From assembly GCA_015063135.1 (NCBI GenBank), contig SUTA01000006.1, positions 1 to 64,000 on the forward strand: 64,000 nucleotides of DNA, written 5' to 3'. The notes below the pieces were generated by a model that saw only the letters and a list, made by a program, of their open reading frames with translations, did no database searches and was not told the origin of the DNA. The stretch comes from Thermoplasmata archaeon. Lineage in GTDB: Archaea; Thermoplasmatota; Thermoplasmata; Methanomassiliicoccales; Methanomethylophilaceae. Made by a program: the position numbers and the translations under genes. Position 1 is the stretch's first letter, and the number at the start of each line of letters is the position of its first letter. Positions 8,805 to 61,311 of this stretch are shown piece after piece.

Positions 8805-11552
8805 ATGCCATTCCCAGGTCTCTCCCCCGCGCTCGTAGAATCCCTGGCGTGCAGGGGGATAACCGAGCCCACCCCTCCGCAGGCCGATGTCATACCCAGG
8901 ATAGCCAAGGGTGGCCACCTCCTGCTGGTCGCCCCCACCGGTATCGGGAAGACCGAGGCGGCCATGCTGCCCATCCTCGACGCGATATACCGCGAGGGGG
9001 ACGGGTCCAAGGGCATCAGGTGCATCTACGTCACCCCCCTCAGGGCCCTCAACAGGGACATGCTCCGCAGGATGGAGCAGTACGGAGAGGACCTGGGCAT
9101 AAGCGTCGGCGTGAGGCACGGGGACACCCCCCAGGCCGAGAGGAACCGCCAGTCCCTCCACCCGCCGCAGATCCTCATCACCACCCCTGAGACGCTGCAG
9201 GTCCTGTTCACCGGCAAGCGCCTTGTCCAGCACCTGAAGAACGTGAGATGGCTGGTCATCGACGAGATCCACGAGCTCTCGGACACCGAGAGGGGCGCCC
9301 AGCTCTCCGTCGCCATGGAGAGGCTCTCCATGCTAGCCGGCGAGTACCAGAGGATCGGGCTATCCGCGACCGTGGGCAACATCGACGACGTCGCCGGGTT
9401 CCTCTCCGGGGTAGGCAGGGAGCTGACGGTGAGGAAGCACGACACCCGCCGCGACTTCGACATCACCGTCGAGAGCCCCGTGCCCGACGAGGACGACAAG
9501 GTCCTGCAGGACAGGCTGCAGAGCGACCCGGACATCCTGGCCGTCATGAAGAGGGCCAGGGAGATCATCGAGGGCGGCAGGAGCACCCTGTTCTTCGTCA
9601 ACACGAGGGAGACCGCCGAATGGCTGGCCGCCCGCTACCACCTGTGGGACGAGTCCATATCCGTGGAGGTCCACCACGGCTCCCTCTCCAAGGAGAACAG
9701 GATGGAGATGGAGGAGAGGTTCAAGGCCGGCGAGGTGAAGTCCCTGATCTGCACCTCGTCCCTGGAGCTCGGCATAGACGTCGGATCCACCGACATGGTC
9801 ATACAGTACAACTCCCCGAGGCAGGTCTCGCGCATGATCCAGCGCGCGGGCCGCGCCGGCCACAGGATAGGGGAGACCATAAGAGCCAGGATACTCGCCA
9901 CCGCCCCCGATGAGGTCGCCGAGTCCCTGGTCGTGGCCAAGAGGAGCAGCACCAAGGAGCTGGAGCACTTCTCCGGCAGGGAGTGCCCCCTGTCCGTCGT
10001 GGCGAACCAGCTGATCGCCATGACCATGATGGGCTCGGTCACCAAGGACCAGGCCTTCCGCGCGTTCTCCCGCGCCCACCCCTTCAGGAACCTGAAGAGG
10101 ACCGACATGGAGGACGTGCTGGCACAGCTGGAATCCATCAAGATGGTCTTCGTCGACGGCGACTCCTTCAAGAGGTCCCGCAAGGGCATGAACTACTTCT
10201 ACGCCAACATCTCCATGATCCCCGACGAGCGCACCTACGCCGTCAGGGACATCGGCACCAGGGCCGTCATCGGCACCCTGGACGAGAGCTTCGTCGCCTC
10301 CTTCGCGGAGGAGTACGCCATGTTCATCGCCAAGGGCAGGACCTGGAGGATCGTCGAGATGCGCGAGGACGAGATCCTCGTGGAGGAGGTCAGGGACGTC
10401 GGGTCCGTGCCCAACTGGGTCGGCTCGGACATCCCCGTGCCCTACGAGGTCGCAATGGAGGTCGGCAGGCTCAGGAGGCTGAGGAACTTCGGCGATTATC
10501 CTGGCGACGAGGGCTGCCGCAGGGTCCTGGAGAGGTACTTCGCCGACCAGGACGAGAGGTCCGAGATGCCCACCGACAGGACCGTCACTGTGGAGTTCGG
10601 CGACCGCCTGGTCATAGTAAACCAGTGCTTCGGGACCAAGGTCAACGAGACCCTAGGCAAGCTGTACGCCGCCCTCCTCACGGCCAGGCTCGGGGAGTCC
10701 GTCGGCATGACCGCGGACCCCTACAGGTGCATCCTGGAGCTCCCCCGGAACGTCAAGCGCGACGTGGTCATGGCCACGATAGAGTCGGTGAAGCCGGGGA
10801 CCGTGGAGGCGCTCACCCGCATGACCATCACCAACTCGTCGTTCCTCAGGTGGAGGTTCGTATTCGTGGCCAAGAAGTTCGGCATCATCGAGAAGGAGGC
10901 GGACCACCGCTTCATGAACTTCCAGAGGCTCTTCGACATGCACAAGGACACCCCCGCATACAGGGAGGCGGTGAACAAGGTGCTCTGGGAGGACCTCGAC
11001 ATCCCCAACGCCGAGAGGTGCGTCTCGATGATCCACAGCGGCGAGATCCGGATCGTCCAGGGCACGGTCTCCGCGATCGGCCTGGAGGGCATAGTCAGGT
11101 CCAAGGAGCTGATGCAGCCGGTCAGGGCCGACCACTCGATCCTCATGGCCATGAAGAAGAGGCTGGAGGACGAGGTCCTGTTCGCCTCCTGCCTGTTCTG
11201 CAGGTCCCAGTGGAGGTTCAGGTGCGGGGACGCCCCCCGGAGGTTCAAGTGCCCCCATTGCGGGGGGGTCATGGTGGCCGTCCTCAAAGGCTACGAGAGG
11301 GACGTCATCAAGATCAGAAGGGACGACGAGCTCTCCGCGCAGGAGAAGAACGACCTCCAGAGGCTATCCAGGAACGCCAATCTGGTGAACGAGTACGGCT
11401 CCAGGGCGGTGCTCGTGCTGGCCGCCAGGGGCGTCGGCCCGGACACTGCGTCCAGGATCCTCAGGAGCATGTACGCCGACGAGGACGACTTCCTCAGGGC
11501 CATCATGAACGCCGAGATCCTCTACGCGAAGAACAAGAGGTTCTGGGACCGA
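8805..11552 (+). CDS. lhr: Lhr-type superfamily 2 DNA helicase
   Basis: 915 residues. Helicase motifs in order: Q-like PTPPQADVIP, Walker A APTGIGKTEA (about 44-53), PLRALNRDM, motif II DEIH (about 153-156), SAT (motif III), then in the second RecA domain SLELGIDVGSTD and QRAGRAGHRIG (motif VI). The C-terminal third carries a CxxC…CxxC zinc-binding segment (CLFCRSQWRFRCGDAPRRFKCPHC), as in the archaeal Lhr-like DEAD-box family involved in DNA repair. The protein ends KNKRFWD, a common family end, before CGA at 11550-11552. A further 42 codons to TAG 11681 have alien codon use and contain the operator and TATA box of the next gene, so they are not counted. Confidence 0.9.
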
Positions 11553-17164: not shown

Positions 17165-18640
17165 TCATGCGAGCATCCACATGAGCCTGGAGACGGCCAT
17201 GCGGATCCTCATCATCACGGTCCTGGAGTCGTGCTCCTCGCAGGTGTACTGCGAGGACTTCTCCAGGTCCTCCAGGAACTGCCCCGCGACCTGCTCCGTG
17301 AGCCTCCTGGAGTAGAGGACGGTGTTGGTCTCGAAATTCAGGGTGAGGGACCTGTAATCTAGATTCGCGGACCCTATGGAGCAGCATCTGCCGTCGATCA
17401 CGATGGCCTTCTCGTGGATGAAGCCGTCATGGTAGCGGTAGACCTTTACCCCGGCCTTCATGAGCTCGTTGGCGAAGGTCAGGTTGTTCCAATAGAGGAA
17501 GATGTGGTCCTTCTTGTCCGGCATGAGTATCCTGACGTCCACTCCGGACTGCGCTGCATACATCAGGGCGGCCTTGGTGGACTCGTCGGGATCCAGGTAG
17601 GGGGTGGTGATGAACACCCTCTCCTTGGCGTTCTGGATCATCGCGAGGTACTGCATCGGGACCTGGTTGTTCGGCATGGTGTCGGGGCCGCCGGAGACCA
17701 GCTGCATTCTGTCCTGGCCAGGGTTGTCCCTGATGGCGGGGTCCAGGTACTCCCAGGTGTGGCGCAGCGGGTCCTTCTTCTCGGTGTACCTCCAATCCTC
17801 TGCGAAATTCATGTACATGGGGATGATCCCGTCGCCCACGACGCGGATGGAACCGTCCCTCCAATGTCCCAGGGGCCCCTCTCCCCTGTACTCGTCGCCG
17901 ATGTTGAACCCGCCGCAGAACGCGACCTTCCCGTCCACGATGGCGATCTTCCTGTGGTTGCGGTGGCTCTTCTTGGGGCTGAGGAACAGCTTGAGCCAGT
18001 AGTGGAATACCGCGTAGTGCCCGCCTGCCTTCTTGAACTCCTTGATGGCCTTGGTGGGTCCCTTCTTGATACCGAAGCCGTCGGCCATGAGGCGGACCTC
18101 CACCCCGTCCCTCACCTTGCCGGTGAGGATGTCCATCAGCTCGTTCCCGTCCTTGTCGTCACGGATGATGTAGTACTCGATCAGGATGGACCTCTCGGCA
18201 GCGCGCATGGCCTCGAACATGTCGTCCCTGAGCTCGGTGCCGTCGGTGTAGACCTTGATGTCGTTGTTCCTGGTGTAGGTGTCCGCACCTGCTTTGGCGA
18301 GGACGTTGGCTACCCACAGGGAGTCGCGGTAGTCCTCGGATTCGCGCATGTCCGCCTCCAGGTCCTCGCGTGACGTCTCGAGCTTGGACCTCCAGAACGA
18401 GGGGTCGTTGTAGACGCCGGTGTGCCAGTATGTGGTGCGCCCGAGGTACAGGTACAGTATGAACCCAACGGGGGGCACGAAGAGCAGCACTATGATCCAG
18501 GCGACGAAGGACCTGGGATCGCAGCGCTCCATGAACATCAGGATGATGATGAACACGATGTCCAGGATGACCAGGAGCATGACGAAGTCGGCTATGTAGT
18601 TGGTCCAACCCAGGAAATCGTCTATTATCTTCATCCTCAT
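17165..18640 (-). CDS. cls: Cardiolipin synthase-type phospholipase D, catalytically complete
   Basis: 491 residues, the normal length of a Cls. Two N-terminal transmembrane helices are followed by two PLD domains with intact HKD motifs: HRNHRKIAIVDGKVAFCGGFNIGDEY and HEKAIVIDGRCCSIGSANLDYRS. Expected to condense archaeal phosphatidylglycerol-type lipids into (glyco)cardiolipins, as shown for the archaeal Cls of Methanospirillum. A conventional ORF joins it to the upstream gene as one 934-residue protein, but the join is a single CGA (18644-18646), directly followed by GGG and ATG 18640 (or ATG 18634). I regard these as two genes with a stop/start overlap. TGA stop. Confidence 0.85.
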   Translation of the reverse strand: MRMKIIDDFLGWTNYIADFVMLLVILDIVFIIILMFMERCDPRSFVAWIIVLLFVPPVGFILYLYLGRTTYWHTGVYNDPSFWRSKLETSREDLEADMRESEDYRDSLWVANVLAKAGADTYTRNNDIKVYTDGTELRDDMFEAMRAAERSILIEYYIIRDDKDGNELMDILTGKVRDGVEVRLMADGFGIKKGPTKAIKEFKKAGGHYAVFHYWLKLFLSPKKSHRNHRKIAIVDGKVAFCGGFNIGDEYRGEGPLGHWRDGSIRVVGDGIIPMYMNFAEDWRYTEKKDPLRHTWEYLDPAIRDNPGQDRMQLVSGGPDTMPNNQVPMQYLAMIQNAKERVFITTPYLDPDESTKAALMYAAQSGVDVRILMPDKKDHIFLYWNNLTFANELMKAGVKVYRYHDGFIHEKAIVIDGRCCSIGSANLDYRSLTLNFETNTVLYSRRLTEQVAGQFLEDLEKSSQYTCEEHDSRTVMMRIRMAVSRLMWMLA

Positions 18641-18643
18641 CCC

Positions 18644-19969
18644 TCGGTTGAACAGCATCATGAACCTGGACAGGGCTATCTTGACCCTCTGCCCGAAGGT
18701 CCTCTCGCCATAATCGCCGGCTGCGAGCTCTTTCGAATGCGACATCAGCTCCTCGAGGCGCGACATCATCTGGGACGACAGCTCCTCTGAGTCCGCCACT
18801 ACGGATGTATGGAAGTCCTGGAGCATGGCCCTGCCGTTGAACGGCGCCATCCCCAGGGCGCAACGCCTGCCGTCCACGACCATCAGGCTGTCGGTGAACC
18901 TGTCGAGGCACATGAAAACCCTGACCCCGGAGTCCACCAGGGACGAGGAGGCCGAAGCGGTGTTCCAGCGCTGGTACCAGCGGATCCCGCGCACTGGCAC
19001 TATTACCTTGACCTCCACGCCGGACAGCGCGGAGAGCTTCAGGAAGTTGTAGACGTTCTCGTCCGGGACCAGGTACGGCTCGGACAAGACTATCGACCGC
19101 TCCGCGCCCTTGACCATGGACACGTACTCGGCCATGGAGGGGTTCAGGTCCTCCCCCAGGTCCGGCCCGGAGGAGACCACCTGCATGGTGATGTCCCCGG
19201 CCGGCTCCGCCGCAGGGACCTGCTCCGGCCTCCTGCCGACGGCGAACGACCAGTCGGCCAGGAAGCGGGCCTCCATCCTGGAGGCCACCGGCCCAGCGGT
19301 CCTGAGGACCGAATAATCGCCGGTGTACGCGACCCTGCCGTCCACCACCATCATGACGCGACGATTCCTGAAGCGGAACGTGGTGGCCACCAGGGCGAAA
19401 AACCTCCTGTGGAACGTCCTGAACTGCACGCCCGCGCTGTGCATGCGCCTGAGGTGCATGATGGTCCTCGGGAGGCCCCTCCCCATCAGGACCCTTATGT
19501 CGAGGCCCTGAGAGGCCTTCTCGCAGATCGCATCGACGAAAGGGGAGATGTCCTCCTGGGGGAGCCTGTAGATCTCGATATGCACCGACCTCTCCGCCTT
19601 GGAGAGGTCCGTCACGACGTCCCTGAGGGCCATGGACATATTCCCGTAGAAGCGGCCGTCGTTGCCGTCGGTGGGCAGGTCCGCGCCCCTGATGCGGGGG
19701 TCGTCCATTATGCCCATCTCCCTGTCGCCGCCGAACTTCCGGCCGAATATGCTTATGGAATAGAGGGTGCAGCCGTACACCAGGTACAGCGCGAACCCTA
19801 TGAACGGGAAGACTATGATTATGACTATCCAGAAGGCGAAGGACCTGGGGTCCATCTTCTCCTTGAAGATCAGCAGGAATATCGCTATGATATCTATTAC
19901 GACGACTAGCGGCAGGACGTCCCAGAAGAATTCAACCAGCGCGAAGAACGGCCGGGTGAAATAGGACAT
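18644..19969 (-). CDS. Cardiolipin synthase paralogue lacking both HKD catalytic motifs
   Basis: 441 residues. Same architecture as the downstream Cls: two transmembrane helices and two PLD-like domains. In domain 1 the HKD histidine is replaced (FRNRRVMMVVDGRVAYTGDYS). In domain 2 both His and Lys are missing (DRFTDSLMVVDGRRCALGMAPFNGR). It therefore cannot use the phosphohistidine mechanism. A regulatory or scaffolding partner of the active Cls is plausible. It starts 6 nt after aIF5B ends and is likely the fifth distal gene of the L7Ae operon. The frame ends with …MMLFN before CGA 18644-18646. Confidence 0.8.
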
Positions 19970-19975
19970 ACCTTA

Positions 19976-24108: not shown

Positions 24109-25581
24109 GTGGGTAAATTGCTGGTTCGCAATTTCACTTTCAAGGTCTCATCCCAGCTGCTGGCGGCGATAATGGCGTTCGTCTCACTGCTGGTTATGAT
24201 CAGGTACGTGGCGGACCAGTACGGGCTGATGATCTGGGCCCTCGCCCTGGTCACCCTGGTCAACACCGTGGCGGACCTGGGGTTCAACACGGCCAACCTG
24301 AAGTTCATCTCGAGGGAGGACCACGACCGCTCCGCCTGCTTCAGCACCTACATGGTCATCAAGCTGGCCCTGACCGGCGTGATGGTTCTGTGCACATTCA
24401 TCACCGTCTATTCCATGCGCCTGACCGGCGCCATCGACGACGAAGCGGTGAAGGTATGCCTCGTGTTCGTGATCTACCAGATCATCTCGAACGTCCAGTT
24501 CGCCATCTACTACACCCTCGACGGCATGAAGCTGAGCGGGAAGAGCTCCATACTCACCATCGTCGAGTGCGGGATCAGGAACGCGGTGCTCATAGGTATG
24601 GCGCTCTACGAGGTGAACGCGACCACCCTGGCCAACGCCTACGTCATCGCCACCACGATCTCGCTGTTCCTGAGCTTCTACATGGCGCACCAGGTCGGCC
24701 TGAGGCCGGTGAAGCCGAAATATCTCAGGGAGTACACCGTGTTCGCGCTGCCCCTGGCGGCCGCGCTGATCCTCACCGCCGTGGTCACGAACCTGGACAA
24801 GGTCATCGTCGGACTGTTCTACGAGAGCATCGAGGTCACGTACTACAGCACCGCCGTGGGCCTGATAGCGACCTTCACGGCCGTCGGGGTGTCGCTGAAC
24901 AACGTCCTGCTGCCCCACCTCTCATCGAGGAACATCATCAGGGACAGGGTCACCGAGCGCACCCTCTGGGGGCTCGAGAAGGGCCTGTGCATCCTGCTGC
25001 TGCCGTTCGTGGCGTTCTTCCTGGTCTTCGGCCCCCAGGTCGCCGAGACGCTGTTCGGCCCCGGTTTCAGCCCCAGCGGCGAGATGACCGCCATCCTGTC
25101 CATCCAGATCATCCCGTTCGTCATCGCCGGGATCATGACGCAGGTCCTCTACGCGATAAACAGGGGCATCTCCTACCTGAGGGCGTCCACGATCATGTGC
25201 ATCATCGCCGTCGGAGGGTTCCTGCTGCTGATCCCCAACACCACCATCCCCTTCAGCCAGGGATGGGGAGGCATGGGCGCCGCGGTCTCCGTCAGCGCCG
25301 CCTACATAGTCTTCTGCATCATCCTCTGCTGGATGGTCCGCAGGTACACCAACATCAGGCTCTACCCCAAGCTCTGGAGGGTCTTCATCGCGTTCGTGCT
25401 GAGCGCCCTCGCCCTGTGGGGGATCGGTCAGGTCGTGGATGTATCCGGCTTCCTATGGCTCGCGATCGTCGGATTCGCCTGCGAGGCCATCTTCATCGGC
25501 ATACTGATGGCCACCAAGGTGCTGAAGGTCAGCGAGATCAAGACCGTCCTCCGCATGTTCATAAAGGACGAGGACGACCGA
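24109..25581 (+). CDS. Oligosaccharide flippase (Wzx/MATE-like)
   Basis: 490 residues with about 14 transmembrane helices. The N-terminal RNFTFKVSSQLLAAIMAFVSLLVMIRYVADQYG pattern is typical of polysaccharide biosynthesis (Wzx) flippases of the MOP superfamily. It would move a lipid-linked glycan across the membrane. Start is GTG 24109, about 28 nt after the TATA box CCTTATTA; no ATG fits. First gene of the surface-glycan region. It ends at CGA 25579-25581, directly convergent with LicD. Two further codons lead to TAG 25590. Confidence 0.85.
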
Positions 25582-25582
25582 A

Positions 25583-26368
25583 TCGCTTAGGCAGATCGTT
25601 GCGGCACAGCCTCTTGTGCTTCACGATGCCGCTCTCGTCCTCGAGATAGTCCTCCAGGAGGCTGTACGGGAATCCCTGCGCCCCTCCCCTCTGATCCTCT
25701 GGCGGCGGCGTCATGTAGTCGCCGTAGAACTCGGTGAGGACCTTGTCGTAGTTGCATGGGACCGGGATCCTGGTGTCCTCGAAGTCGAACATGACGGGTT
25801 CCCCGAAATCGACCCTCTCCCACGAGTTGCCCATGATGTCCACCGCCCTGATGCAGATGCGGCTGGAATCCGGGGTGGATAGCATGCGGGTCATCTTGCG
25901 GGAAATGCGCATGATGCCGTAGAACAGGCCTCCGATGACCCTCCCGTGCTCCCTGATCATCTTGTGGGACAGTAGCTCGAACCCGATGAACGGGTACGAG
26001 AGCTTCCTGCGGATGCCGGAGTCGGGGTAGTCCAGGAGGAGGAAGATGTCGATGAAGGAGACCTTCCAGTCGGCCATGTCCTTCTCGAATTCGGGGGTCC
26101 TGATGACGACGTGGGGGTGGCTGTCCGCACTGGGGACGTGGTAGTAGTACACATCCTAATCCAGGTGCTTGCAGAGCGCCTCGTTGACCCTGTCGAGGTC
26201 GGCGCCGTAGACCGCAAGATCCAGGTCGTCGTCCCAGGGGATGATGCCGTTGTGCCTGACGGCCCCGATCGCGGTGCCGTACGCCGCGTAGTAGGTGATC
26301 CCCTCCTTCTCCAGGATAGCGGAGATGTCCTTGTACGCCTGCAGGAGCGCCGCGTGATTGTCGCTCAT
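25583..26368 (-). CDS. LicD-family phosphotransferase with one internal TAG codon
   Basis: 261 codons. GTAIGAVRHNGIIPWDDDLDLAV (about 31-53) is the LicD nucleotidyltransferase-fold signature, with the metal-binding Asp residues in WDDDLDL. Codon 71 is TAG (26156-26158) between CAC-CTG-GAT and GAT-GTG-TAC, and the frame and codon use continue unchanged for 190 codons. LicD proteins transfer phosphocholine or related groups from CDP/CMP donors to glycans. Next to PepM, Ppd and PntC the donor is probably CMP-2-aminoethylphosphonate. The frame ends at CGA 25583-25585, 1 nt from the flippase's CGA on the other strand; a TGA follows at 25559. Confidence 0.75.
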
Positions 26369-26401
26369 CTGAATGCTCGATAGGGGAGCGCGTATGTAAA
26401 C

Positions 26402-27682
26402 TTAGGCATTGGCGGAAGCGCAGCCGGCGAGACCCGCGCGGTAGATCTTGAGCAAGTGCCAGAGCAGGATGATCGTGGCGACCCCCTTGAGCGCATCGGC
26501 CAGGATGTACACGACACTGATGTGGTCGGTGGCATCCTGCATGCAGAGGACGGTCAGCAGGGACGCGGCGCAGAGGAACACTATGTAGTGGAGCATGCGC
26601 CCCCTGTCCACCCCCAGCTTTGTGCAGGCCCAGACCATCAGCGGGTACAGGATCGCGACCCACATCACGTACTGGGCGCAGAATACCTTGTTGAAGGCCA
26701 TGAACAGCATCAGCGTGATCGCGCAGGCCAGGACGGTGAGCGCGAAGGTCCTCTCCCAGTCCGGGCGGAGCTTCCACATCTTCACCAGGAAGTGCAGCAT
26801 GAACAGCAGCATTATGCCGAACGTGAGCGGCATGATGTACGGCGCCACGCCCTCGGCCACCGGGCCGAACAGGTCCCAAGACTCGTCCATGCCGACGTAC
26901 ACCAGGCTGGGGTCGATCAGCCCGATTATCATCAACGGCACCGCGAACAAGCTCTCTATCTCGACGCCCCTCCCGGAATGCTGGGTCAGGTAGCTGAAAG
27001 CGGTGGACGGGTCGGCAATCAGGAACGGCAGCTCGATGACGAAGCAGACGCCCGCGCATACGATGCCGAAGAGGAAGAAGTGCTTCCAGTCCCTCTGCGC
27101 GAAGAACGGTATCAGCAGCACCGGCAGCAGGAATATCGGGTAGATCTTGGTCATGATGCCCAGCGCCAGCAGCACGAAGGCCACTGCGAACTTCCTCTCG
27201 GAGTAGAACAGGATGCAAAGAAGGACGAACACCGTGGTGATGGTGTCGTTCCTGGCGATGAGGAAGTTGTTCAGGCCCAGGATCAGCAGCAGGAAGGTGA
27301 TGTAGACGTACTTGTGGTCCACCCCGCGCCTGTCGCAGAACTTGAACGTGAAGTGTATCGCGATGATCGTGAACAGGTACGTGAACATCGCGAACGAGTA
27401 ATGGAACCCGGTCTCGCTGGACAGGAAGAAGTACGGTATCAGGTAGATGACGAACGAGAAGGGAGGATAGGCCGTGTCGAAGTCCTGGTAAGGCATCAGC
27501 CCGTCCATGATGTCGCGTGCGTGCTCCCAGTAGAAGTAGACGTCGTACCAGGCGTAGTTGTTGCCGACGACGCCGTTCATGACGTCGGACAGGCCTATGA
27601 CGAACAGGTAGAGCGCGGTGTAGACGATGTAGAACCTGATGTCAGGCTCCTGCAGCTTCCTCCTGAACCCGTCCGCGTCCAC
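26402..27682 (-). CDS. Polytopic membrane glycosyltransferase (GT-C type)
   Basis: 426 residues with about ten transmembrane helices and the first-loop pattern YDVYFYWEHARDIMDGLMPYQDFDTAYPP, typical of DUF2029/GT87-like lipid-dependent mannosyltransferases with an early Asp. Start GTG 27682 follows GAGGGGAT within the end of pntC. Conventional translation fuses it to PntC, but the two are separated by CGA at 27692-27694. It probably adds sugars from a polyprenyl-phosphate donor outside the membrane. TAA stop. Confidence 0.75.
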   Translation of the reverse strand: MDADGFRRKLQEPDIRFYIVYTALYLFVIGLSDVMNGVVGNNYAWYDVYFYWEHARDIMDGLMPYQDFDTAYPPFSFVIYLIPYFFLSSETGFHYSFAMFTYLFTIIAIHFTFKFCDRRGVDHKYVYITFLLLILGLNNFLIARNDTITTVFVLLCILFYSERKFAVAFVLLALGIMTKIYPIFLLPVLLIPFFAQRDWKHFFLFGIVCAGVCFVIELPFLIADPSTAFSYLTQHSGRGVEIESLFAVPLMIIGLIDPSLVYVGMDESWDLFGPVAEGVAPYIMPLTFGIMLLFMLHFLVKMWKLRPDWERTFALTVLACAITLMLFMAFNKVFCAQYVMWVAILYPLMVWACTKLGVDRGRMLHYIVFLCAASLLTVLCMQDATDHISVVYILADALKGVATIILLWHLLKIYRAGLAGCASANA

Positions 27683-27691
27683 GCGATCCCC

Positions 27692-29515
27692 TCGCAGCGT
27701 CTTCATGTACTGGCCCAGGAGGACGGTGAACCTCTCCATCTCCTCCGGGCGGATGTCGCCGATGTTGGCGATCCTGAACGTCTTCGCGTCGCTGAGCTTG
27801 CCCGGGTAGATGGTGAACCCGTACTCCCTCGAAAGGTCGTGCATCTCGTCGAAGCTGTACCTGGGGCTCTCCGGGTCCATGAACGTGACGATGAGATGGG
27901 ACTGCTCCGACTCCGGGACGGCCATCCTCAGCCCGATCCTCTTCGCCGCGGCGACGAGGACCTCCCAGCACGCGGTGTACCTGGCGTACCTCCCCTCGAT
28001 GGTCTCTATCTTCGTCTCGAGAATCGCCTGCCTGAGGGCGTAGGCGGTCTGGACGGGGGGCGTGAAGCGCATCTGGTTCTTGTCCTTGTAGTACTTGTGC
28101 TGGTCGTAGACGTTCAGGTAGTAGTTGCGCATCGGATAGTCCTTGATGGCCTCCAGCGCCTCCTTCCTGCAGAAGACGAAAGCCAGACCTGCCATCCCCT
28201 GGATGTTCTTGTTGGAGGTGCTGGACATGAAGTCGATGCAGTCGCGGTCCATGTCGATGGGGATGGCTGCGAACGCGCTGACCGCATCGACGATCGTGAC
28301 TATGCCGTGCTCGCGGCAGAACCTGCAGACCTCCGGGACGGGGTTGAGTATCCCGGTGGTGGTCTCGTGGTAGACGATGGCCATGTGGGTGAACTTCCCG
28401 TCGACCAGCTCCTTCTCCAGGGCCGGGACGTCAATGCGGCTCACGCCATCCGATTTGAACGTGGCGTAATCGATGCCGTAGATGCCGGCCATCTTGGCCA
28501 TGCGCTTCCCGTATGCCCCGTTATCGACGATCAGTAGCTTCCCGTCCTGCGGGACGCAGGAGGAGATCATCGCCTCGTCGGCCGCCGTGCCGGATCCCCC
28601 GAACAGGACTGTCTCCACCCTGCCGGGTTCCCCGACCATGAGCGACAGCTCCCCGGAGATCCATCCCATGACGTCCCCGAACTCGTTCTCCCTGGGGCAG
28701 ATGTCCGCCTGGACCTGCGCGTACTTCACGCTGTCCGTGGTGGTCGCCGGGCCGGGGTTCAGGAGCACCTCGCGGCGGATGCCGCGGATGTCCTCGTTCT
28801 CCGCGATGCGTGGGTAGACCTGCTCCACGGCCCTCTTCAGATGGCTCTCGTCGTCGATCTCGCACCACGTGTAGTACTCGACCTTGCGAACGGCTATGCC
28901 GTTCCCGGCGCAGGACACCGCCTGCATGGCGGCCTCGTACTCCATCTTGGGGTTGCCCTGCCTCCGGATCTCCTCGGCCATCAGGTCCAGGGTCTCCTTC
29001 CTAAGCTTGGTGATTCCGACGAGCTCGGAGTATACCGAATCCAGCTGGTCGGCGTGCTTGGACTGCCTCACCAGGCTGCCCTGCGAGTCCACCTGCAGCC
29101 AGACCTCGTCCCCCGAGCCGGTCCTGCCCGACGACAGGATCACGTCCCTGCGGGGGTCGTTGATCAGGACATGGAGGCCTATGGAGTCGTACAGCAGGTC
29201 CGATTCCAGGAGGAGGAAGTCCCCTTTGACCAGCGGGGCGCAGGCGGCCAGGGTCGCCATGCTCCCCGTGCTGGCGTAATCAGCGTTGTGGGCCAGCCTG
29301 ATGCACGGGTACCTCCCCGCCAGCTCCTGGTACCACTCGGCGTGGTAGCCGGTGCCGATGATTATCTCCTCGACGCCCGCCGCTATTAGCTTCTCGATCG
29401 ACTGGACGATTATCGGCTTGCCGCCGACCTCCAGGAAGCCCTTCGGCATGTCCTTCGTCCTGCTCCCGAGCCTGGAACCCAGGCCCCCTGCCATGATGAC
29501 CGCCTGCGCTATCAT
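27692..29515 (-). CDS. pntC: Bifunctional 2-aminoethylphosphonate cytidylyltransferase / aminotransferase
   Basis: 607 residues. Residues 1-240: nucleotidyltransferase with GGLGSRLGSRTKDMPKGFLEVGGKP and an acidic metal site (LLESDLLYD). Residues 250-600: class V aminotransferase with PLP lysine in STSNKNIQG and the N-terminal LLNPGPAT of AEP:pyruvate transaminases. The order and length match PntC of Treponema, which makes 2-aminoethylphosphonate and activates it to CMP-AEP. It lies 4 nt from ppd. No CGA occurs at the internal junction, so this fusion is genuine. The end is CGA 27692-27694 inside the Shine-Dalgarno of the next gene. Confidence 0.9.
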
Positions 29516-29519
29516 CGGA

Positions 29520-30638
29520 TCATATCCCTATATTGCCCATCAGGGCCGCTTTGTTCTCGGCCGGGGTGGACTTGGGCCTCCCCAGGTCCTTCCTCGCCCC
29601 GCGGTGGACCATGACCTGCACGAACGCGGGCCCGTCCCTTGCCTTCAGCGCCCCCCTGAGCCCCTCGGGGGTGCTCACGGTGGTGACGCTCCTGTATCCC
29701 ATCGCCTCGGCGATGGAGTGCACGTCGATCTCCCTGGAGACCGTCGGCTGGCCGCCCACCGAATCGTGGACGCCGTTGTTTATCATGATGTGGATGAGGT
29801 TCGCGGGGGCCTGCGTGGCTATGGTGGCCATCCCGCCCATGTGCATTATCACGGCGCCGTCGCCGTCGATGCATACGATCCTCCTGCCGGGGAGGCTCAG
29901 CGCCATGCCCAGGGCTATCTGGGAGGAGTGCCCCATGGAGCCCACCGTCAGGAAGTCCCTGTCGTGGGGCTCGCCCCTGGCGTCCCTGATCTCGTAGAGC
30001 TCCCTGGACGCCATGCCGGTGGTGGAGACGAAAAGCGCGTCTGGAAGCTCCTCGGATATTATCGAGATGGCCTCCTCGCGGCTCATCGGGTACGCTTCCT
30101 CCGATGCCTTGTTCTTAGGCGCGTAATCGGCGAATGCGCCCTTCCTGACGACTATGGCGTACGGGGACCCCTCGTTGGCAAGATGCCTCCCGCATGCCTC
30201 GACCGCCACGGCGCAGCCCTCCTCGTCCCCGGATATGACCGAGTACGGGATGCCCATCGTCTCCAGGAGCGTGCACGTGACCTTCCCCTGCTTGACGTGC
30301 TGGGGCTCGTCGTGGACCCCGGGCTCCCCGCGCCACCCTATGAGCAGCACCATGGGGATGCGGTAGACGTCCTCGTCGGCCAGGGACAGCAGCGGGTTGG
30401 TGGCGTTGCCCATGCCCGAGTTCTGCATGTAGACCAGCGGGACCCTGCCGGTGGCCAGGTGGTACCCCGCGGCGAGGCCCACCGCGCAGCCCTCGTTGGC
30501 CGCGATGATGTTCCTCTCGTCGGGGACGTTGTCCTTGAGGTAGGCGCAGAACTGCTTCAGGAGGGAGTCCGGGACGCCGGTGAAGAACCCGACGCCTATC
30601 CCCTCGAGCTGCGCATGGAACGCTGATGCCTCCACCAT
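29520..30638 (-). CDS. ppd: Phosphonopyruvate decarboxylase
   Basis: 372 residues, thiamine diphosphate enzyme. GFFTGVPDSLLKQFC and NEGCAVGLAAGYHLATG (with the catalytic Glu) form the N-terminal domain; CIDGDGAVIMHMGGMATIA…MINNGVHDS is the GDG-N30-N TPP/Mg motif. It converts phosphonopyruvate to phosphonoacetaldehyde, pulling the PepM equilibrium forward. ATG 30638 lies 4 nt beyond the CGA of pepM, with GAGG as Shine-Dalgarno. True TGA stop. Confidence 0.93.
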   Translation of the reverse strand: MVEASAFHAQLEGIGVGFFTGVPDSLLKQFCAYLKDNVPDERNIIAANEGCAVGLAAGYHLATGRVPLVYMQNSGMGNATNPLLSLADEDVYRIPMVLLIGWRGEPGVHDEPQHVKQGKVTCTLLETMGIPYSVISGDEEGCAVAVEACGRHLANEGSPYAIVVRKGAFADYAPKNKASEEAYPMSREEAISIISEELPDALFVSTTGMASRELYEIRDARGEPHDRDFLTVGSMGHSSQIALGMALSLPGRRIVCIDGDGAVIMHMGGMATIATQAPANLIHIMINNGVHDSVGGQPTVSREIDVHSIAEAMGYRSVTTVSTPEGLRGALKARDGPAFVQVMVHRGARKDLGRPKSTPAENKAALMGNIGI

Positions 30639-33944: not shown

Positions 33945-34547
33945 ATGGAATCAGGGAGACCCCTAGCATCCGTCGCGACCGCCCTGTCGGCCGCCTCGCT
34001 CGCCTGCTCCGCATGGTACAGCGACTGGATCGGTGCCGGGGTCGCCGTCTTCGCGCTGGTCTTCTCGGCCATCGCCGTGCTGAAATGCGGCCCCAGGGCC
34101 GCGATGTTCTGCCTGGCCGCATCCGCCGTCTCCCTCGTGGGCACCGCCGTGATATCGTTCTGGTTCACCGAGGAGCTTGTGAACGACGGCACCATCTCGC
34201 GCACGGTCTGGAACTTCGGCTGCGCGTTCATCCACGCGGCGCCGCTGCCCCCTCTGTCCATCGCCGCGTTCTACTGCATCGCCGCGGTGTTCAACGCATC
34301 GTTCAACTGGGCACTCACCTTCAGTCTCTGCCCGTTCGTCGGGCTGGGGATGCTCGTCCCGGGCTTCGTCATGGAGTACATCGACGAGATGCTCGGGGCC
34401 CCGGAGCTCCCGAACAACGCCTACGCCGTGACCTGTCTGGCGGTGGGACTGGTCATCATGGCGATCACCGGGGTGATCGTCCGCAGGGTCATGAAGCCCA
34501 ACATGTACCTCATCCGCGCATCCGGAAGGGAGGTCAGGGACCCATGA
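33945..34547 (+). CDS. Membrane protein of unknown function
   Basis: 200 residues, five or six hydrophobic helices, basic C-terminal tail. No family recognised. Its TGA overlaps the ATG of the next gene (ATGA at 34544-34547), so the two membrane proteins are coupled. Confidence 0.6.
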   Translation: MESGRPLASVATALSAASLACSAWYSDWIGAGVAVFALVFSAIAVLKCGPRAAMFCLAASAVSLVGTAVISFWFTEELVNDGTISRTVWNFGCAFIHAAPLPPLSIAAFYCIAAVFNASFNWALTFSLCPFVGLGMLVPGFVMEYIDEMLGAPELPNNAYAVTCLAVGLVIMAITGVIVRRVMKPNMYLIRASGREVRDP

Positions 34548-35221
34548 CCCCCGAGGAGGATGCGAAGCAGCGCAGGCTGGCCAAGATTGTCCTGATAGCA
34601 TGCCCGGTCTCATTCATGGCGGTGTTCGCCGCCGTGACCATGGGCTGGGACCCCGGAATAAAGGCCGGGCACCCCCTAGAGTACCTCCAGGCTACCTGCT
34701 TCCTCTGGGCGCTCATCTCCACCGTCCTGCCCATACTCCGCCTGCTGAGGATCTTCTCGCTGCCCTACTGGTTCGCCGCCATCATCTACGGCGACATGTA
34801 CCTCTACGTGCTCTCGCTGTGCTCGGGGATGTACCTGAACATCAGCTGGTGGGGAGACCTCACCCACATCCTTTCCTCGATCATCGTGTCCGGGATCGTC
34901 TTTATGGTCCTGGGCCTGATGCACAGCAGGCTGCCCCCGCACGCCTCCTTCGGCGGCAGGGGAGGGTTCACCGCCGTCCTGTTCCTTGTGTCCTTGAGCT
35001 TCGGGGGCATCTGGGAGATCATGGAGGGCATGACAGACCTCATCTCCGGCCAGTCGTACATGGTGTACGGAGCGAAGGACACCCTGGGCGACCTCACCGC
35101 GGATCTCGTCGGGGTGACCATCCTGAGCATCGCGGCATACATCGCCATGGGCAGGATCCCCGTCGAGAGGATAATCGACGGCCTCAGGTTCGGCAAGGGC
35201 TCCTTCAAGACGGATGCACGA
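34544..35221 (+). CDS. DUF2238/YjdF-like membrane protein
   Basis: 225 residues with six or seven helices. The segment GGIWEIMEGMTDLISGQSYMVYGAKDTLGDLTADLVGV recalls the E-x8-D…DT-x2-D-x3-D pattern of DUF2238/YjdF proteins, whose function is unknown. Coupled by ATGA overlap to the gene before. The frame ends …FKTDA before CGA 35219-35221, with continuation to 35332 overlapping the convergent gene and rich in CGG/CGA. Confidence 0.6.
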
Positions 35222-35240: not shown

Positions 35241-36248
35241 TCGCAGATCCGTGCGGACGCCGTACACCGGGTAGAAGCCCCCGAAGTGGATGTAGACGAA
35301 ATCGGCCCCGTCTACGGACATCGAGCCCCTGAGGGTCCCGTGGACGGTGCCGTTCTTAATGTCTAGGAGGGTGCTGAGATGGCTGATCCCCGATGCGACT
35401 ATCTGGGCCAGGTCGCTGCGCTGGTTGTTGGAGAACTCCCCTCCCAGCACGCAGACCATGCCGTCGCCGAGGCCGGCCATGCAGACGCTGCTGTACGTGC
35501 CGTCGGTGTATCCGATCTCCCTGTGGACGGCTCCGTCGGGGAGGAGACCGGGTGCGACCGCGTACCTCATCCTGTTGTTCTGGAGGCAGAGCTCCTGGCA
35601 CATATCCGCCATGGAGAACGCGTAGCCGTTCTCGTCCGAGCCGTTGAGGCATTCGGACCCGAGGAACCTGCTACATCCGTTCTCAATCGTCGAGACGGTC
35701 TCCCCGTCAGAGGAATACGCTCCGAGCGAGTTACCTGCCCAGTACAGCCTGCCGCCCGCCTCTATCCAGCGGATTATCAGGTCCTCATCCTCGCCGTACA
35801 CGGTGGACGGGAGGGATCCGGACAGCACTATCACGGCGTCGGTGTTGCCGCCGATGCCGCCGGACATTAACGCGGCCATGGCCTCGGCATCGATTATGGA
35901 TGCCTCCACCGAACGGAACTTCAGGGCCTTTACCAGCTGCTCCACGTAGTACTCCTCGTCGAGCTCGCGGGCGCCGGTCGCTATGTCCGGGTTCACATAG
36001 TACGATGCGTACCCGGGATCCATGTAGATGCTCACCGACGAGTTCGGGTCGAATCCCCCGTCGTCGAATGCCATCACGGAATACGTCTCCGCGGGCCCGG
36101 ATTCCAGCTCGTACGTCAGAGCGCCGTCGTACCGGGCATCGGCGCTGAAATGGTCGCTCCCCGAGAATACGCGGACCTCCCCGATCACGACCGCCGCGAT
36201 GATGACCGCGACTATGATCAGCATCGGGACATCCTTCCTGTAGTTCAT
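35241..36248 (-). CDS. Secreted/anchored protein with a GATase-like Rossmann region, function unknown
   Basis: 335 residues. One N-terminal transmembrane helix (MLIIVAVIIAAVVIGEV) then an extracytoplasmic domain. VIVLSGSLPS…DLIIRWIEAGGRLYWAG looks like the DUF4350/class-I-GATase-type fold used in surface glycan proteins. Its ATG overlaps the stop of the upstream glycosyltransferase (ATGA, 36245-36248), implying joint function. The frame ends …GVRTDL before CGA 35241-35243; a TGA at 35205 follows after 11 codons. Confidence 0.6.
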
Positions 36249-37745: not shown

Positions 37746-38195
37746 ATGGGCCTCGTGAAGGATCTGATGCAGACGCACCGCGAGGCCATAGCCTATGTTT
37801 TCTTCGGCGGCCTCACCACGCTTTTCACCTGGGGGTCCTATTCGCTGTTCACCTACCTCGGATGGGGCATGAACCCGTCCAACATCCTGTCGTGGGTGTG
37901 CGGGGTGAACTTCGCCTTCGTGGTGAACAAATGGTACGTCTTCCAGAGCAGGTCCCTCAAGAAGGGCAGGATCGCCAAGGAGTACACATCCTTCATCGGC
38001 TCCAGGATCCTGACCGGCGTCGTCGCCTGGGTGCTGTTCCCCATACTGCTCTGGATGGGGCTGGACTTCAGGTTCCTCAGCATCGACGGATTCGTCGCCA
38101 AGATAATCGTCAGCATCGTTGAGATAGTGCTGAACTGGGTGCTGAGCAAGTACTTCGTCTTCAAGATGAGGGAAGAGCTGAACAACGAGATCCGA
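37746..38195 (+). CDS. gtrA: GtrA-family membrane protein
   Basis: 149 residues, four helices, with YVFFGGLTTLFTWG and NFAFVVNKWYVFQ, both typical of GtrA. These proteins are thought to flip undecaprenyl- or dolichyl-phosphate sugars. Convergent with a GT2 polyprenol-phosphate sugar synthase, the usual partner. The frame ends …EELNNEI before CGA 38193-38195; TGA follows at 38216. Confidence 0.85.
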
Positions 38196-38196
38196 A

Positions 38197-38934
38197 TCGG
38201 ACGTCGATGTGCTTGACCTTGGCGTAGACCTTGGCGAGCGCGCGGCCCACGCATCCGCACTGGTGGAAGGTGGTGTAGACGACCTTGTTGCTGATGTGCG
38301 ACTCGCCTACCTCCCTCTTGTTGAAGATATAGTGCACGCTGGTGATCTTCAGGTCCCTGGGGCCGAACTTCAGGAGATCGAGCAGAACCTTCCAGCCCTG
38401 CATCTCGAGCTGGTCCCAGTTGTCCTTGATGACGGGGATGAAGACGTCGGTCCTTCCCGCGATGAGGCCGCTCATGACGTCCTTGGAGATGGGCTTCCTG
38501 TGCCACATGAGGAACAGGTCGGCGAAGATGGTGAACACCCAGGAGCCTGCCCAGCGGGTGAATCCCATGGCGGTCCTGTCGTCCCTGGTCCCGATGCAGA
38601 GGTCGCAGCCCTTCTCCATCTCCTCGTACATGCCCTTGAGGACCTCCGGCGGGTGCTGGAAGTCGCAGTCGAAGGTCATGAAGTAGTCGGTGCCGCACTC
38701 GAGGATGCCCTGGAAGACACTGGCCGCGAGGCCCCTCTCCTCTGGCTTCCTGACGATCATGATGGTTAGGGGATCGTTGAGCGCATCGATCAGCTCCTTG
38801 GAGCGGTCGGTGGAGTTGTCGTCCATGAACATGACCTTGAAGTCGGGGTACATCTCCCTGAGGGTCTTCGCCATGTTCACTACGTTGTTCTCCTCGTTGA
38901 GGGTGGGGATGACGACTGTGCATGTTCCGGGCAT
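38197..38934 (-). CDS. GT2 polyprenyl/dolichyl-phosphate sugar synthase (DPM1-like)
   Basis: 245 residues. VVIPTLNEENNV (nucleotide-binding start), MDDNSTDRS and FDCDFQHPPE (DXD) are the GT2 DPM1/GtrB signatures. No C-terminal membrane helices, so it is a soluble/peripheral enzyme. It supplies lipid-linked sugar to the GT-C transferases nearby. The frame ends …VKHIDV before CGA 38197-38199, separated by one base from the gtrA CGA on the other strand; TGA follows at 38161. Confidence 0.85.
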
Positions 38935-46879: not shown

Positions 46880-47665
46880 ATGACCGTCCGCATCACGGCA
46901 GAGAACCTCGGGGCGGCGTACGGGGGCAACGTCATCTGGAAGGGCATAAACCTGGACATGGGCGAGCCCGGGCTGATAAGCATCCTGGGACCCAATGGAG
47001 CCGGGAAATCCACGTTCATGTACATGGTCAACAAGATACTGGAGCCCGCCGAGGGAAGGGTCCTGATCAACGGCGAGGACATCATGGACCTCACGTTCAA
47101 GGACATAGCCAAGCTGATCGCCTATGTCCCGCAGGCGTCTGGCGAGACGTTCGCCATGACCGTCATGGACACCGTCCTCATGGGCAGGTACCCCCACTCC
47201 GGGTACGCGCTGACGGAGGAGGACCTGGAGATCGCGGCGGACTGCTTGGAGAAGATGCACATGGCGGAGTTCGCCATGAGGAACTTCAACGAGCTCTCCG
47301 CGGGCCAGCACCAGAGGGTGATGATAGCCAGGGGCCTGGCGCAGGAGCCGGAGCTCCTGATGCTGGACGAGCCCACCTCCAACCTGGACATATACCACCA
47401 GATCCGCACGATGAGGCTCCTGAGGGACATCGCCCATCAGAAGGGCATCATGGTCCTGGTGATCTGCCACGACCTGAACATAGCCGCGAAGTTCTCCGAC
47501 AGGATCATAATGTTCCAAAAAGGCAGCATATATGCCGACGGCACCGCCGCCGAGGTGCTGACGGCCAAGACCATCAAGGATGTGTACAACGTCGACGCGG
47601 ACGTCATCGAGGTCAAGGGGCGCCCGTACGTGATATACCACAACGAGGGCGACGCGGACGAGCGA
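46880..47665 (+). CDS. FecE/BtuD-family ABC ATPase
   Basis: 261 residues. Walker A GPNGAGKST (about 37-45), Q-loop VPQ, signature LSAGQHQR, Walker B LLMLDEPTSNLD, H-loop ICHD. Forms the importer with the two genes before it. The protein ends …GDADE before CGA 47663-47665. The conventional ORF adds 155 residues antisense to the small convergent gene, ending at 48130, which has no support. Confidence 0.92.
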
Positions 47666-51740: not shown

Positions 51741-52238
51741 ATGGACGCGGAGATTTGGTTCAGCGATATTATCGGGAGGAACGTTGCAGGGGAGCCTCTG
51801 GAGCCGGCTCGCGAATGGGTCTCCGGGGACTGCCGCACCGTCATAGACGGGCACACGGTCCGCGTCTACATGCGCGACAGGGTCCAGATCTTCGCCGTCA
51901 GGAGGCCGGAGGAGCTGGCCCGCAGGCTGGACCTCGGCGAGGTCCCCGAGGACCGCTGGAGGGACGAGGAGGGCAACCGCGTGTGCTACGGCAACGCCGT
52001 GCCCTACGGCCCCGACGGGCAGCCCTACACCTGGGGCATGGTGATCGGCAACGTGGACGGCGTGGAGAAGGCCGAGTGCTTCGAGACGGAGCAGGAGGCC
52101 AAGGGCGCCGGCGCGGAGGCTTGGGAGTCCATGTCCGAGGACGAGAAGAGGCCCAGGTACCTGCTGGTGGGCCTCATCGACCCCAGGTTCATGATAAGCA
52201 AGTCCCTCGAGCCCATGTGGTGGCCCGGAACATTCCGA
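51741..52238 (+). CDS. Hypothetical soluble protein
   Basis: 165 residues, acidic, rich in Trp, Arg and Glu, no signal peptide or membrane helix. Segments such as NAVPYGPDGQPYTWGMVIG and FETEQEAKGAGAEAWESM suggest a compact alpha/beta protein, with no family recognised. A TTTATATC element at 51722-51729 lies close before ATG 51741. The frame ends …MWWPGTF before CGA 52236-52238, directly facing the CGA of the convergent helicase; TGA 52367 would follow. Confidence 0.55.
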
Positions 52239-52239
52239 T

Positions 52240-54111
52240 TCGCCCTGAGAAGAAAGCCCTCACGGCTGCCGGGATGTCGTCGCAAGCTTCTGCGTCCACA
52301 TCCGGCAGCACGTGCACCCTCTTGTCGAAGATCGCCGCGACGCCGCGGTCGGTCTCCGACCTTATGAGCCTGCCCATGGCCTGGCGCATCTTCCTGGATG
52401 CCGGGATGTACACCGTGTACAGCGTGCCGTCGCCGGTCATGTGGTCGTAATAGCGCTGCATCGCCCTGGCCTTCGCCGTCGGCTTGGGGAACGGTATCCC
52501 GATGAGCACCGCGAGCTCCAGCGTCTTGTCGGGGAAGTCCAATCCCTCGCTGATCCTCCCGCCCGTCACGCAGAACAGCACGCCGCCCTCCGACATCCTG
52601 AACCTCTCGAAGGCGTCCATCAGCTCCGCCTGCTGCATGCCCCTGCGCTCGTAGAAGATCTCCCTGCTCAGGCGCTCCTCCAGGCCGTCCGCGATCATCC
52701 TGTCCATCATCTGATAGGACGGGAAGAACACGGCGGTGTTGACCCTCACCGCGTTCACCGTTCCCACGACACCGTCCATGAGCATGCGGTAGTTCTCCTC
52801 GAGGAACCTCTCGTCGTACTTCATGGTGACCTTGTCGCAGTACAGCTTCAGCAGGTTGCCCACGGGGAACTGCGATGTCATCATCAGCTTGGCGGGATCC
52901 TCCACGCCGAGCTCCCTCGCGTACTCGTCGAGGGGCGCGAGCGTGCCGGACATCAGCACGGCGGAGCGGCAGTCCCTCAACGGGCCGGCTGCGCCGGACG
53001 GGTCCATGCAGTAGGTCTGCAGCTTGTGGTTGCCCTCCTCGCCCACGATGAGCTGCACATAGGTCAGCTCGTCGGCCATGGACCAGAAGTTCAGGAAAGC
53101 GGCCAGGTGGCCGACGTATGTCCGGGGCAGCTTCCTCCTCGCCTTGCGCTTCTCCTCCACCATGGACCCGAAGTCCTCCATGGCCTTGCAGATCCTCCTG
53201 ATGGCGATGGACGACACTCCGAGGCGGGTCATCAGCTCGTCCTCCAGGAAGTATGGCGGCAGGAGGCCGTCGTCGTCCATGAGATACTCCTTCCCTGCGT
53301 AGCGGATGATCTCCTCCACCACGGCTATCACATCGGTGAGCTTGATGTCCTCGTGCATGTCGGGGTCGCCGTACTCCCTCGCCTCCTTGTCGGCGCGGGC
53401 CAGCGAGCGCATGCCGAGCTCGGCGGTCTGGACGTCCCTGAGGTAGTCGGGGAGGTTGTGGGCCTCGTCCACCACGAGGACGGTCCTGGACAGGGGCGTC
53501 CCGGTCCACTGAACGAAGTGGTCGAGGATCTGCGGGATGAACACGAACGGGTACGGGGCGCATATGACGTCGGCCTTGGGCAACAGGAGCTTCTGCAGCT
53601 CGTAGGGGCACACCCCCTCGGCCTCGCACCTGTCCGCGAACTCCTCGGGCCCCAGGTGCTCCGTGCGGATGACCGACTCCCAGCGGTCGAGGTCGGCCGT
53701 CTCGACGTTGTCGAAGAACGAGCAGTGCCTGCAGCCGTTGGAGTCGCGCTTCTTGTACTCGGAGCAGAGCTTCGATATCTCCTCTGGCGTCCCCGATGAG
53801 AGCTCCGGATCGTCCCTCATCAGCGGGCACGACACCGAGGACCTGCCCTGTATCGCCACGCACAGCACATCGGCCTTGATCGCGGCGCACTCCCTGACGA
53901 TCTGCTTCTGCTGCGATTTGGTCCTGGTGAGGTACACGACCTTGCACCCGGACTCCATGGCGCACGGCAGCGTGCCGCACAGGGATGTTATGGTCTTGCC
54001 GGTCCCGGTCCCCGCCTCCACGACGGCGCGCCGGGATTCCCGGACCGAACGGTCCAGGAACCCGACCAGCTCGCGCTGGCCGGGCCTGTACTGGTATGGG
54101 AAGATGTCCAT
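52240..54111 (-). CDS. XPD/Rad3-family (DinG-like) Fe-S DNA helicase
   Basis: 623 residues. YQYRPGQREL, Walker A EAGTGTGKT (about 33-41), a cysteine group for the [4Fe-4S] cluster (CPLM…CSEYKKRDSNGCRHC…CEAEGVCPY), motif II VVDEAHNL, and the C-terminal motifs GGRISEGLDF and QAMGRLIR. 5'-3' helicase for repair. The ATG (54111) overlaps by one base the CGA that ends the upstream gene (CGATGG). The frame ends …FFSG before CGA 52240-52242; TGA follows at 52189. Confidence 0.92.
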
Positions 54112-54503
54112 CGCTGGTCTTCGCCGCCCCTGCGCCAGATGTCGTCGGGGAGGTCGTCGTAGACGGACGCCTCCTCGGCCTCCTGGACGGGGGCCTCCTC
54201 CCTCTCCTCGAGGAGCTTGTTGATCCTCTCCCTCCTGAACAGCCAGTAGTGGATCCTCCACTCCCTGCCGTCGTAGAGGGTGGTCTCCTCCCTCTCGGTG
54301 GTGAGGATGCCGGCGTCCTCCAACATGTAGAAGGCGTCCCTGTCCTCGGGCTCCAGGACGTTGTCGATGATCCTGTCGGAGTACCCGAAGAAGTTCAGGA
54401 CGTGGTGCGCCAGCATGTGCGCCTCCTCCTCGGCCATGTCGCGGCTCTCGTCGATGCCGTTCCTTATGGCCAGGGACAGGCTGTCCACGGTGATTATTCC
54501 CAT
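54111..54503 (-). CDS. DUF6015-type protein of Thermoplasmata
   Basis: 130 residues, alpha-helical, starting MGIITVDSLSLAIRNGIDESRDMAEEEAHMLA and including LEDAGILTTEREETTLYDGREWRIHYW, a winged-helix-like end. I recognise it as the DUF6015 kind restricted to Thermoplasmata; function unknown. It ends …RRGGEDQ before CGA 54111-54113, whose A starts the helicase ATG, the classic stop/start overlap (TGATG elsewhere). The conventional ORF would run 40 more codons, out of frame, to 53988. Confidence 0.75.
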
Positions 54504-60481: not shown

Positions 60482-61309
60482 ATGGATGGCGATACCCCCG
60501 CGACTTTGGACGACGTTGCATTCGTCGCCTGCGGCGGCGGCGCCAGGGCGCTCATCAACGATGCCGAGGACCGCCTCTACGCCGTCCCCGCCATCATCGA
60601 CTCCGTCGACAGCGACGTCCCGCTGGAGGGGGGCCCCGACGGCCCCCACTGGGACGAGAACATCGCATACGGCGTGGTCTCCGCGAACGCGGAAGCCGTG
60701 TCGAAGCTGTTCAAGGGGCGCAGGATCGCCCTGGTCTACTCCGAGATCGGAGGGGGCACCGCATCCGGCATGACGCCCGCGATAATCGAATGCGCCAGAT
60801 CCTCCGGCTGCAAGGTCGTCTCGGTGGTCAGCCTCCCCATGGAGTTCGAGGAGGCCCGCAGGGAGAGAGCCCTCAGGGTGCTCCCCGAGATCGTGGGGAA
60901 ATCCGACAGGACCTTCATCATGGACAGAGAGTCCCTCAACCGCCGCCCCCACCTCAAGGCCGTCAACCTGATGCAGATGACCATGCGCACCATGGTGTTC
61001 GTCATCAACAGCCTGCGCGAGCAATTAGAGGGGCCGTTCTTCAGCACGTTCTCCCAGGGCGCCTACACCTTCTCCTACCTGTCCAGCGACGACCCGGCGG
61101 AGATAGTGGAGGCGGCCGAGTCCACGGTGTTCGCCACGGACCCCAACGAGGGCAAGCTGATAATCCTGACCGGGTCCGGCTACGAGCTCGCCAAGCGCGA
61201 GCAGGTCCGCGACGCGGTCGTCGCCCAGAGCGGGATCCTCCCGGAGATCATCGCCAGGGGTGACCCCGACGACACCAAGTTCCTGGTCTACGCCTCGGTG
61301 AAGCTCCGA
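60482..61309 (+). CDS. Divergent FtsZ/tubulin-like protein
   Basis: 275 residues. ALVYSEIGGGTASGMTPAIIECAR holds a tubulin/FtsZ G-box (GGGTASG for GGGTG[ST]G), but the first glycine loop is reduced to VACGGGARALI and the synergy-loop region is not obvious. GTP binding is plausible, polymerisation uncertain. Separate from the normal FtsZ expected in the genome. The frame ends …VYASVKL before CGA 61307-61309. The conventional ORF adds 120 residues antisense to the convergent methyltransferase, to 61672. Confidence 0.72.
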
Positions 61310-61311
61310 GG

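Follow-up and report, generated by a model that had tools for sequence, protein, structure and literature searches.

The arginine codon CGA is almost certainly a stop codon in the genome studied here, as judged from where it stands in the genes and where it does not. The genome belongs to a gut methanogen of the Methanomethylophilaceae (GTDB genus UBA71, ca 61% GC), which a phylogenetic tree places as sister to all other members of the genus. The assembly is 1.86 Mb in 40 contigs and 87% complete, and the window is the stretch of 64,000 nucleotides at positions 1-64000 of one contig. Codons and gene ends were counted base by base in a sample of ca 0.96 Mb of this genome and in a minor part of the relatives' genomes, while the searches covered the window's genome completely. 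Frames of this genome and of its relatives were paired by homology, and antisense shadow frames were filtered out by a test of the GC content at the codon positions. Hundreds of apparent in-frame CGA codons, obtained with mechanical longest-ORF references, were found to be such shadow frames of high-GC genes and were gone after the filter, and seven interior CGA codons in one comparison vanished once one set of short-flank references had been excluded.

A sequence-only reading of the window had described convergent genes that terminate at facing CGA codons, and all of its coordinates for them agree with the sequence. The polysaccharide flippase gene (24109-25581, + strand; Pfam PF13440/PF01943) ends with CGA at 25579-25581, and opposite to it a LicD-like gene (25583-26155, - strand; PF04991) ends with a CGA that is read as TCG at 25583-25585 on the + strand, leaving a gap of 1 nt. 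The same gap is found at 38193-38199, between GtrA (37746-38195, +; CGA at 38193-38195; PF04138) and a GT2 glycosyltransferase (38197-38934, -; TCG at 38197-38199; PF00535), and at 52236-52242, between a hypothetical gene (51741-52238, +; CGA at 52236-52238) and an XPD/rad3-family helicase (52240-54120, -; TCG at 52240-52242; matched in Pfam and by NCBIfam TIGR00604). The hypothetical gene has an open frame with a coding-like codon composition and no Pfam match. At 61307-61314 the gap is 2 nt, between an FtsZ/tubulin-like gene (60482-61309, +; CGA at 61307-61309; PF00091) and the TrmJ methyltransferase (61312-62031, -; TCG at 61312-61314; NCBIfam TIGR00050). A looser pair, with a gap of 19 nt, is formed by a membrane-protein gene (34544-35221, +; CGA at 35219-35221) and an opposite gene that ends with CGA at 35241-35243 (-).

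These facing CGA codons are the stop codons of tail-to-tail genes. The idea that they stand where TGA would give ordinary pairs is borne out by the orthologous junctions in relatives, which carry TGA/TCA. At the flippase/LicD junction, the CGA-A-TCG of the window corresponds to TGATCA in G003, where TGA ends either gene, and in G013, G012 and G003 the TGA of the LicD-like orthologue is at most two codons from the end of the window gene. The TrmJ/FtsZ-like junction reads TGATCA in G018, TGATCG in G001, CGATCG in G002 and CGAGGTCG in the window. The TrmJ orthologues have their TGA within a few codons of the window gene's end, with CGA instead in G001 and G002, and the FtsZ-like orthologues end in TGA, in G002 in CGA. 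For XPD, the homologues have TGA or TAA as their stop, at the position of the window gene's CGA or close to it. Homologues that share the sequence past the CGA were looked for and not seen.

The symmetry of the pairs is also beyond chance, as had been proposed. Convergent pairs with a gap of -4 to 12 nt have CGA at 51 of 52 ends in the ca 0.96 Mb, compared to 66 of 170 at wider spacing (Fisher p=3e-16). One possibility is that the near-exclusive use of CGA/CGA at the tightest junctions reflects CGA being the stronger stop in this genome. Some 24 more junctions resembling the one at 25579-25585 were observed in the same sample, while relatives have TGA/TGA or mixed ends at such spacing. The genome-wide change of the code, the missing tRNA and the CGA inside the aRF1 gene of relatives, all discussed below, are not part of the sequence-only reading.

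We now turn to the genome-wide use of the codon. Called genes end in CGA in 25 of 55 cases in the window; a first count in its long real genes had found CGA to be nearly absent except in the last codons, and when CGA was added to the three standard stops, it terminated 23 of the 50 longest non-overlapping frames. The 638 gene ends called without homology in the sample comprise 320 TGA, 267 CGA, 35 TAA and 16 TAG. Among 71 homologous gene ends in this genome there are 33 TGA, 31 CGA and 4 TAA (3 unresolved), while 95 such ends in the standard-code sister G014 give 84 TGA, 5 TAA and only 2 CGA (4 unresolved); the difference, 31/71 against 2/95, has p=4e-12. At the exact position of the homologue's stop, CGA was found 13 times, and the next-best of the 61 sense codons tested twice. 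In 27 of 34 cases the frame continues for more than 6 codons beyond the CGA before a standard stop is reached. Interior CGA was not found in 24,679-27,285 homology-aligned codons in the ca 0.96 Mb. It is important to note that this interior absence alone proves little, since CGA is rare inside genes throughout the genus. Out of frame, CGA is common in these genes: the two remaining frames contain it 3,180 and 13,160 times in 204,432 codons. This means that its avoidance is a matter of decoding and not of DNA; avoidance of the trinucleotide as such is ruled out. The pelota gene of this genome also ends in CGA (...RYRME-CGA), as do, in the window, an Lhr-like helicase (8805-11552, +) and an ABC transporter ATPase (46880-47665, +), both named from sequence motifs.

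The surroundings of the stops indicate where they came from. When the stop overlaps the ATG of the next gene as ATGA, it is TGA in 62 of 62 cases and CGA in none. Overlaps of the form TGATG/CGATG, in which the T is not part of the ATG, have CGA in 11 of 12 cases. An A at position -1 precedes 97 of 320 TGA stops but only 20 of 267 CGA stops (p=1e-12). Taken together, the sparing of ATGA, the bias at CGATG and the contrast at -1 show that the CGA stops arose from TGA by mutation. The mechanism that we favor is one in which aRF1, the single archaeal release factor, would accept C besides U ahead of GA, at the first codon position. CGA would first have become very rare in the family, and with the loss of tRNA-Arg(UCG) in the lineage of this genome it would have been harmless for a TGA at the end of a gene to mutate to CGA, such that these transitions could accumulate, except where the T belongs to the ATG of the next gene. 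In the rest of UBA71, CGA would likewise be a stop, at low frequency. Taken as a whole, that is, termination at CGA by aRF1, an origin from TGA and a switch within the aRF1 gene in the rest of the genus (see below), this is very probably the right explanation.

The tRNA complement was examined next to the codon counts. The genome gives 43 tRNA matches, among which the arginine anticodons are TCT, CCT, GCG and CCG. The tRNA-Arg(UCG) that would read CGA was not found by a tRNA family search, by ARAGORN or by a pattern search in the 87% complete assembly; a gene with an intron, or one in the missing ca 13%, could have escaped these searches. The same pattern matches 19 sibling genomes. It has no match in a lower-GC group (G003, G007, G009, G012, G013, G019, G023, G025 and G030), some of which are single-contig, nor in the incomplete assemblies G016 and G017. 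The pattern also matched tRNA-Pro(CGG) (TTCGGGAG...), which was set apart.

CGA stops are not confined to this genome. At exact homologous ends they occur with low frequency in G001, G002, G007, G008, G009, G017, G021, G026 and G027. G008 and G021, which long open frames had suggested to be full CGA-stop genomes, use TGA at the majority of their gene ends. In Methanomethylophilus-like genomes, cmk ends with CGA just before the ATG of a cbf5-like gene in seven assemblies (genes named from sequence), and the end of cmk is GCA TGA in the close relative L347 and GCA CGA in L338 and L341. The two genes lie in one frame with CGA-NNN-ATG between them in L326, L327, L331, L334, L338, L341 and L352, and the CGA could be a leaky stop that yields a Cmk-Cbf5 fusion. 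The tRNA-Arg(UCG) is retained in the relatives G001, G021 and G027 and in the Methanomethylophilus-like genomes, all of which have CGA stops. Since the tRNA is present and some genes end in CGA, the decoding of this codon may be ambiguous there. It is rather probable that in the whole family CGA is a (weak) stop, read by aRF1, and has been used to make aRF1 self-limiting, with a competition from tRNA-Arg(UCG) that varies by lineage, from ambiguous decoding to complete reassignment in the species of the window.

The release-factor gene itself was analyzed in some detail. The aRF1 of this genome scores 539 bits against the NCBIfam equivalog TIGR03676 (cut-off 235) and has NIKS at 57-60 and the YxCxxxF motif as YRCDSTF at 121-127. 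Its gene closes with ...RYKVS-CGA, an end that overlaps the ATG of the argS-like gene that follows. The aRF1 genes of relatives end in TGA, TAA or, in G034, TAG, the exception being G031 with CGA followed immediately by TAG. The tandem CGA TAG is the aRF1 end in L314, a horse-faeces MAG of a relative with 37% GC. Among the aligned aRF1 sequences, only that of this genome carries the two adjacent substitutions K65N and N66H, which immediately follow NIKS-K-T-T-M; as the change in the release factor that might underlie recognition of CGA, they are only a lead. G001 has NIRS in place of NIKS.

In the siblings, the codon of Arg77 in aRF1 is almost the sole true interior CGA. It is CGA in 20 of the 20 other UBA71 loci examined in which the codon was readable, within the context xCT CGA CTH, which is fixed down to the synonymous positions and in which GCT or TCT precedes and CTC, CTA or CTT, never CTG, follows. 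For comparison, GCT and TCT make up 7% and 5% of the Ala and Ser codons, CTG makes up 41% of the Leu codons, and a single codon is kept in only 8 of 129 invariant four- or six-fold aRF1 columns of the UBA71 loci. G007, G019, G030 and their sisters, which are near-complete (G007 and G030 single-contig), keep CGA77 although tRNA-Arg(UCG) was not detected in them. In other genera, most of the CGA-avoiding genomes also have CGA in their aRF1 gene, at different arginines (24, 49, 122 and 326). Lineages whose CGA usage is ordinary may have none. The Methanomethylophilus-like group has 0 CGA among ca 1,835 Arg codons elsewhere, yet at least one in every aRF1. As these sites are related by descent, the counts overstate their independence.

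From this conservation and position we infer that aRF1 may limit its own synthesis. Plentiful aRF1 would terminate at its own CGA77, and when the factor is scarce an arginine tRNA would read through the codon, so that more aRF1 is made. The genome of the window has CGC at position 77 and is thus without the switch. A known counterpart is the autoregulatory frameshift in the gene of bacterial RF2 (prfB), which uses UGA and a +1 shift. In both cases, by this reading, the gene of the factor carries a codon that the factor takes as stop, and scarcity lets translation continue. The putative aRF1 switch would act like that of RF2 without being a member of its class, because instead of a frameshift past the stop the frame is maintained, with a conserved Arg77, and a codon that is formally arginine would be read through.

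Other explanations for the CGA-ended genes were also considered. The failure to find tRNA-Arg(UCG) in this genome would fit a codon that is simply unassigned, at which ribosomes stall and are cleared by a rescue of the Pelota/ABCE1 type rather than by aRF1. However, the relatives that keep this tRNA have CGA-ended genes too, the near-universal choice of CGA at the tightest junctions does not resemble a tolerated defect, and a conserved CGA is located within the aRF1 gene, which makes this option improbable. Editing of C to U in the mRNA, turning CGA into UGA, is compatible with DNA data, as CGA replaces TGA exactly, but the editor would have to sense the frame or the gene ends, given how common CGA is in the other two frames, and we consider it very unlikely. 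If CGA were an ordinary arginine codon, the proteins would extend to the next standard stop, and isolated cases in relatives with such a stop a few codons on could indeed be stop-loss extensions. This is still less likely for the present genome, where CGA accounts for 44% of the homologous ends and is absent inside genes, and where the tails are often long, run antisense into the facing gene and have no homology past the CGA. The least credible option is an error of sequencing or assembly that converts TGA to CGA. The genome is a draft, like the metagenome assemblies of the relatives, but both strands and many contigs show the changes, which are located at stops and spare the ATGA overlaps, and CGA stops are also found in the independent assemblies G001, G002, G008, G021, G026 and G027.

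A separate question is whether the CGA in the aRF1 gene of relatives has anything to do with termination. It could be a slow-codon attenuator or an RNA element, and the conservation of its context is by itself silent on which machinery reads the codon. Compared to this, a link to termination is in better agreement with the facts that this very codon terminates genes within the genus, that it lies in the gene of a termination factor, that other genera carry their aRF1 CGA at other arginines, and that it is kept in complete genomes in which tRNA-Arg(UCG) is not detectable. We regard the attenuator as unlikely, while giving it more weight than any of the options of the previous paragraph.

Changes from sense to stop have been described for UCA and UCG in green-algal mitochondria (PMC6821328) and for UUA and UCA in peDinoflagellate plastids, the latter termed the first such change outside mitochondria (PMC12574857). 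As in the present genome, the former amino acid codon is missing inside genes, lacks a cognate tRNA and ends genes. The organelle cases concern small genomes with RF1/RF2-type factors, whereas the present genome is that of a cellular archaeon, in which hundreds of genes end in CGA and the factor is of the aRF1 type; the codon is CGA, with C in place of U at the first position. AGA and AGG are found as termini in vertebrate mitochondria (PMC12574857). Like CGA here, these are arginine codons at gene ends. They terminate two genes of one organelle, while CGA makes up ca 42% of the gene ends in the present genome. A Codetta screen covered 250,000 genomes, with new stop codons lying beyond the detection of the method according to its authors (PMC8629427). 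The bacterial reassignments of CGA and CGG (PMC8629427) resemble the present case in that rare arginine codons change meaning and tRNA-Arg(UCG) is lost in some, but they are to other amino acids and in low-GC genomes, while here the new meaning is stop at ca 61% GC. The literature search gave no paper on CGA acting as a stop in the family or the order, and according to the literature searched this would be the first reassignment from sense to stop in a cellular genome, outside organelles.

A CGA stop implies an aRF1-type factor that would accept C at the first stop position, a position generally regarded as restricted to U in this class. The relatives differ in whether the tRNA is present or lost and in whether CGA stops are rare or common, and as living intermediates they allow the course of a code change to be tested. 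Since the family has cultured members (Methanomethylophilus), it is open to such tests.

For annotation, the consequence is that protein predictions made with the standard code in UBA71 contain false C-terminal tails and false fusions. Two pairs of separate genes in the window, at 17165-19972 and 26402-29527, are merged across CGA by standard-code ORF calling. In the former, a phospholipase-D-like gene (18644-19972, -) ends in CGA with a second PLD-like gene (17165-18640) directly after it, and the standard code joins the two into one 934-aa frame. In the latter, a nucleotidyltransferase/aminotransferase-like gene (27692-29527, -; named from sequence) ends in a CGA beyond which the same frame leads into the next gene (26402-27682).
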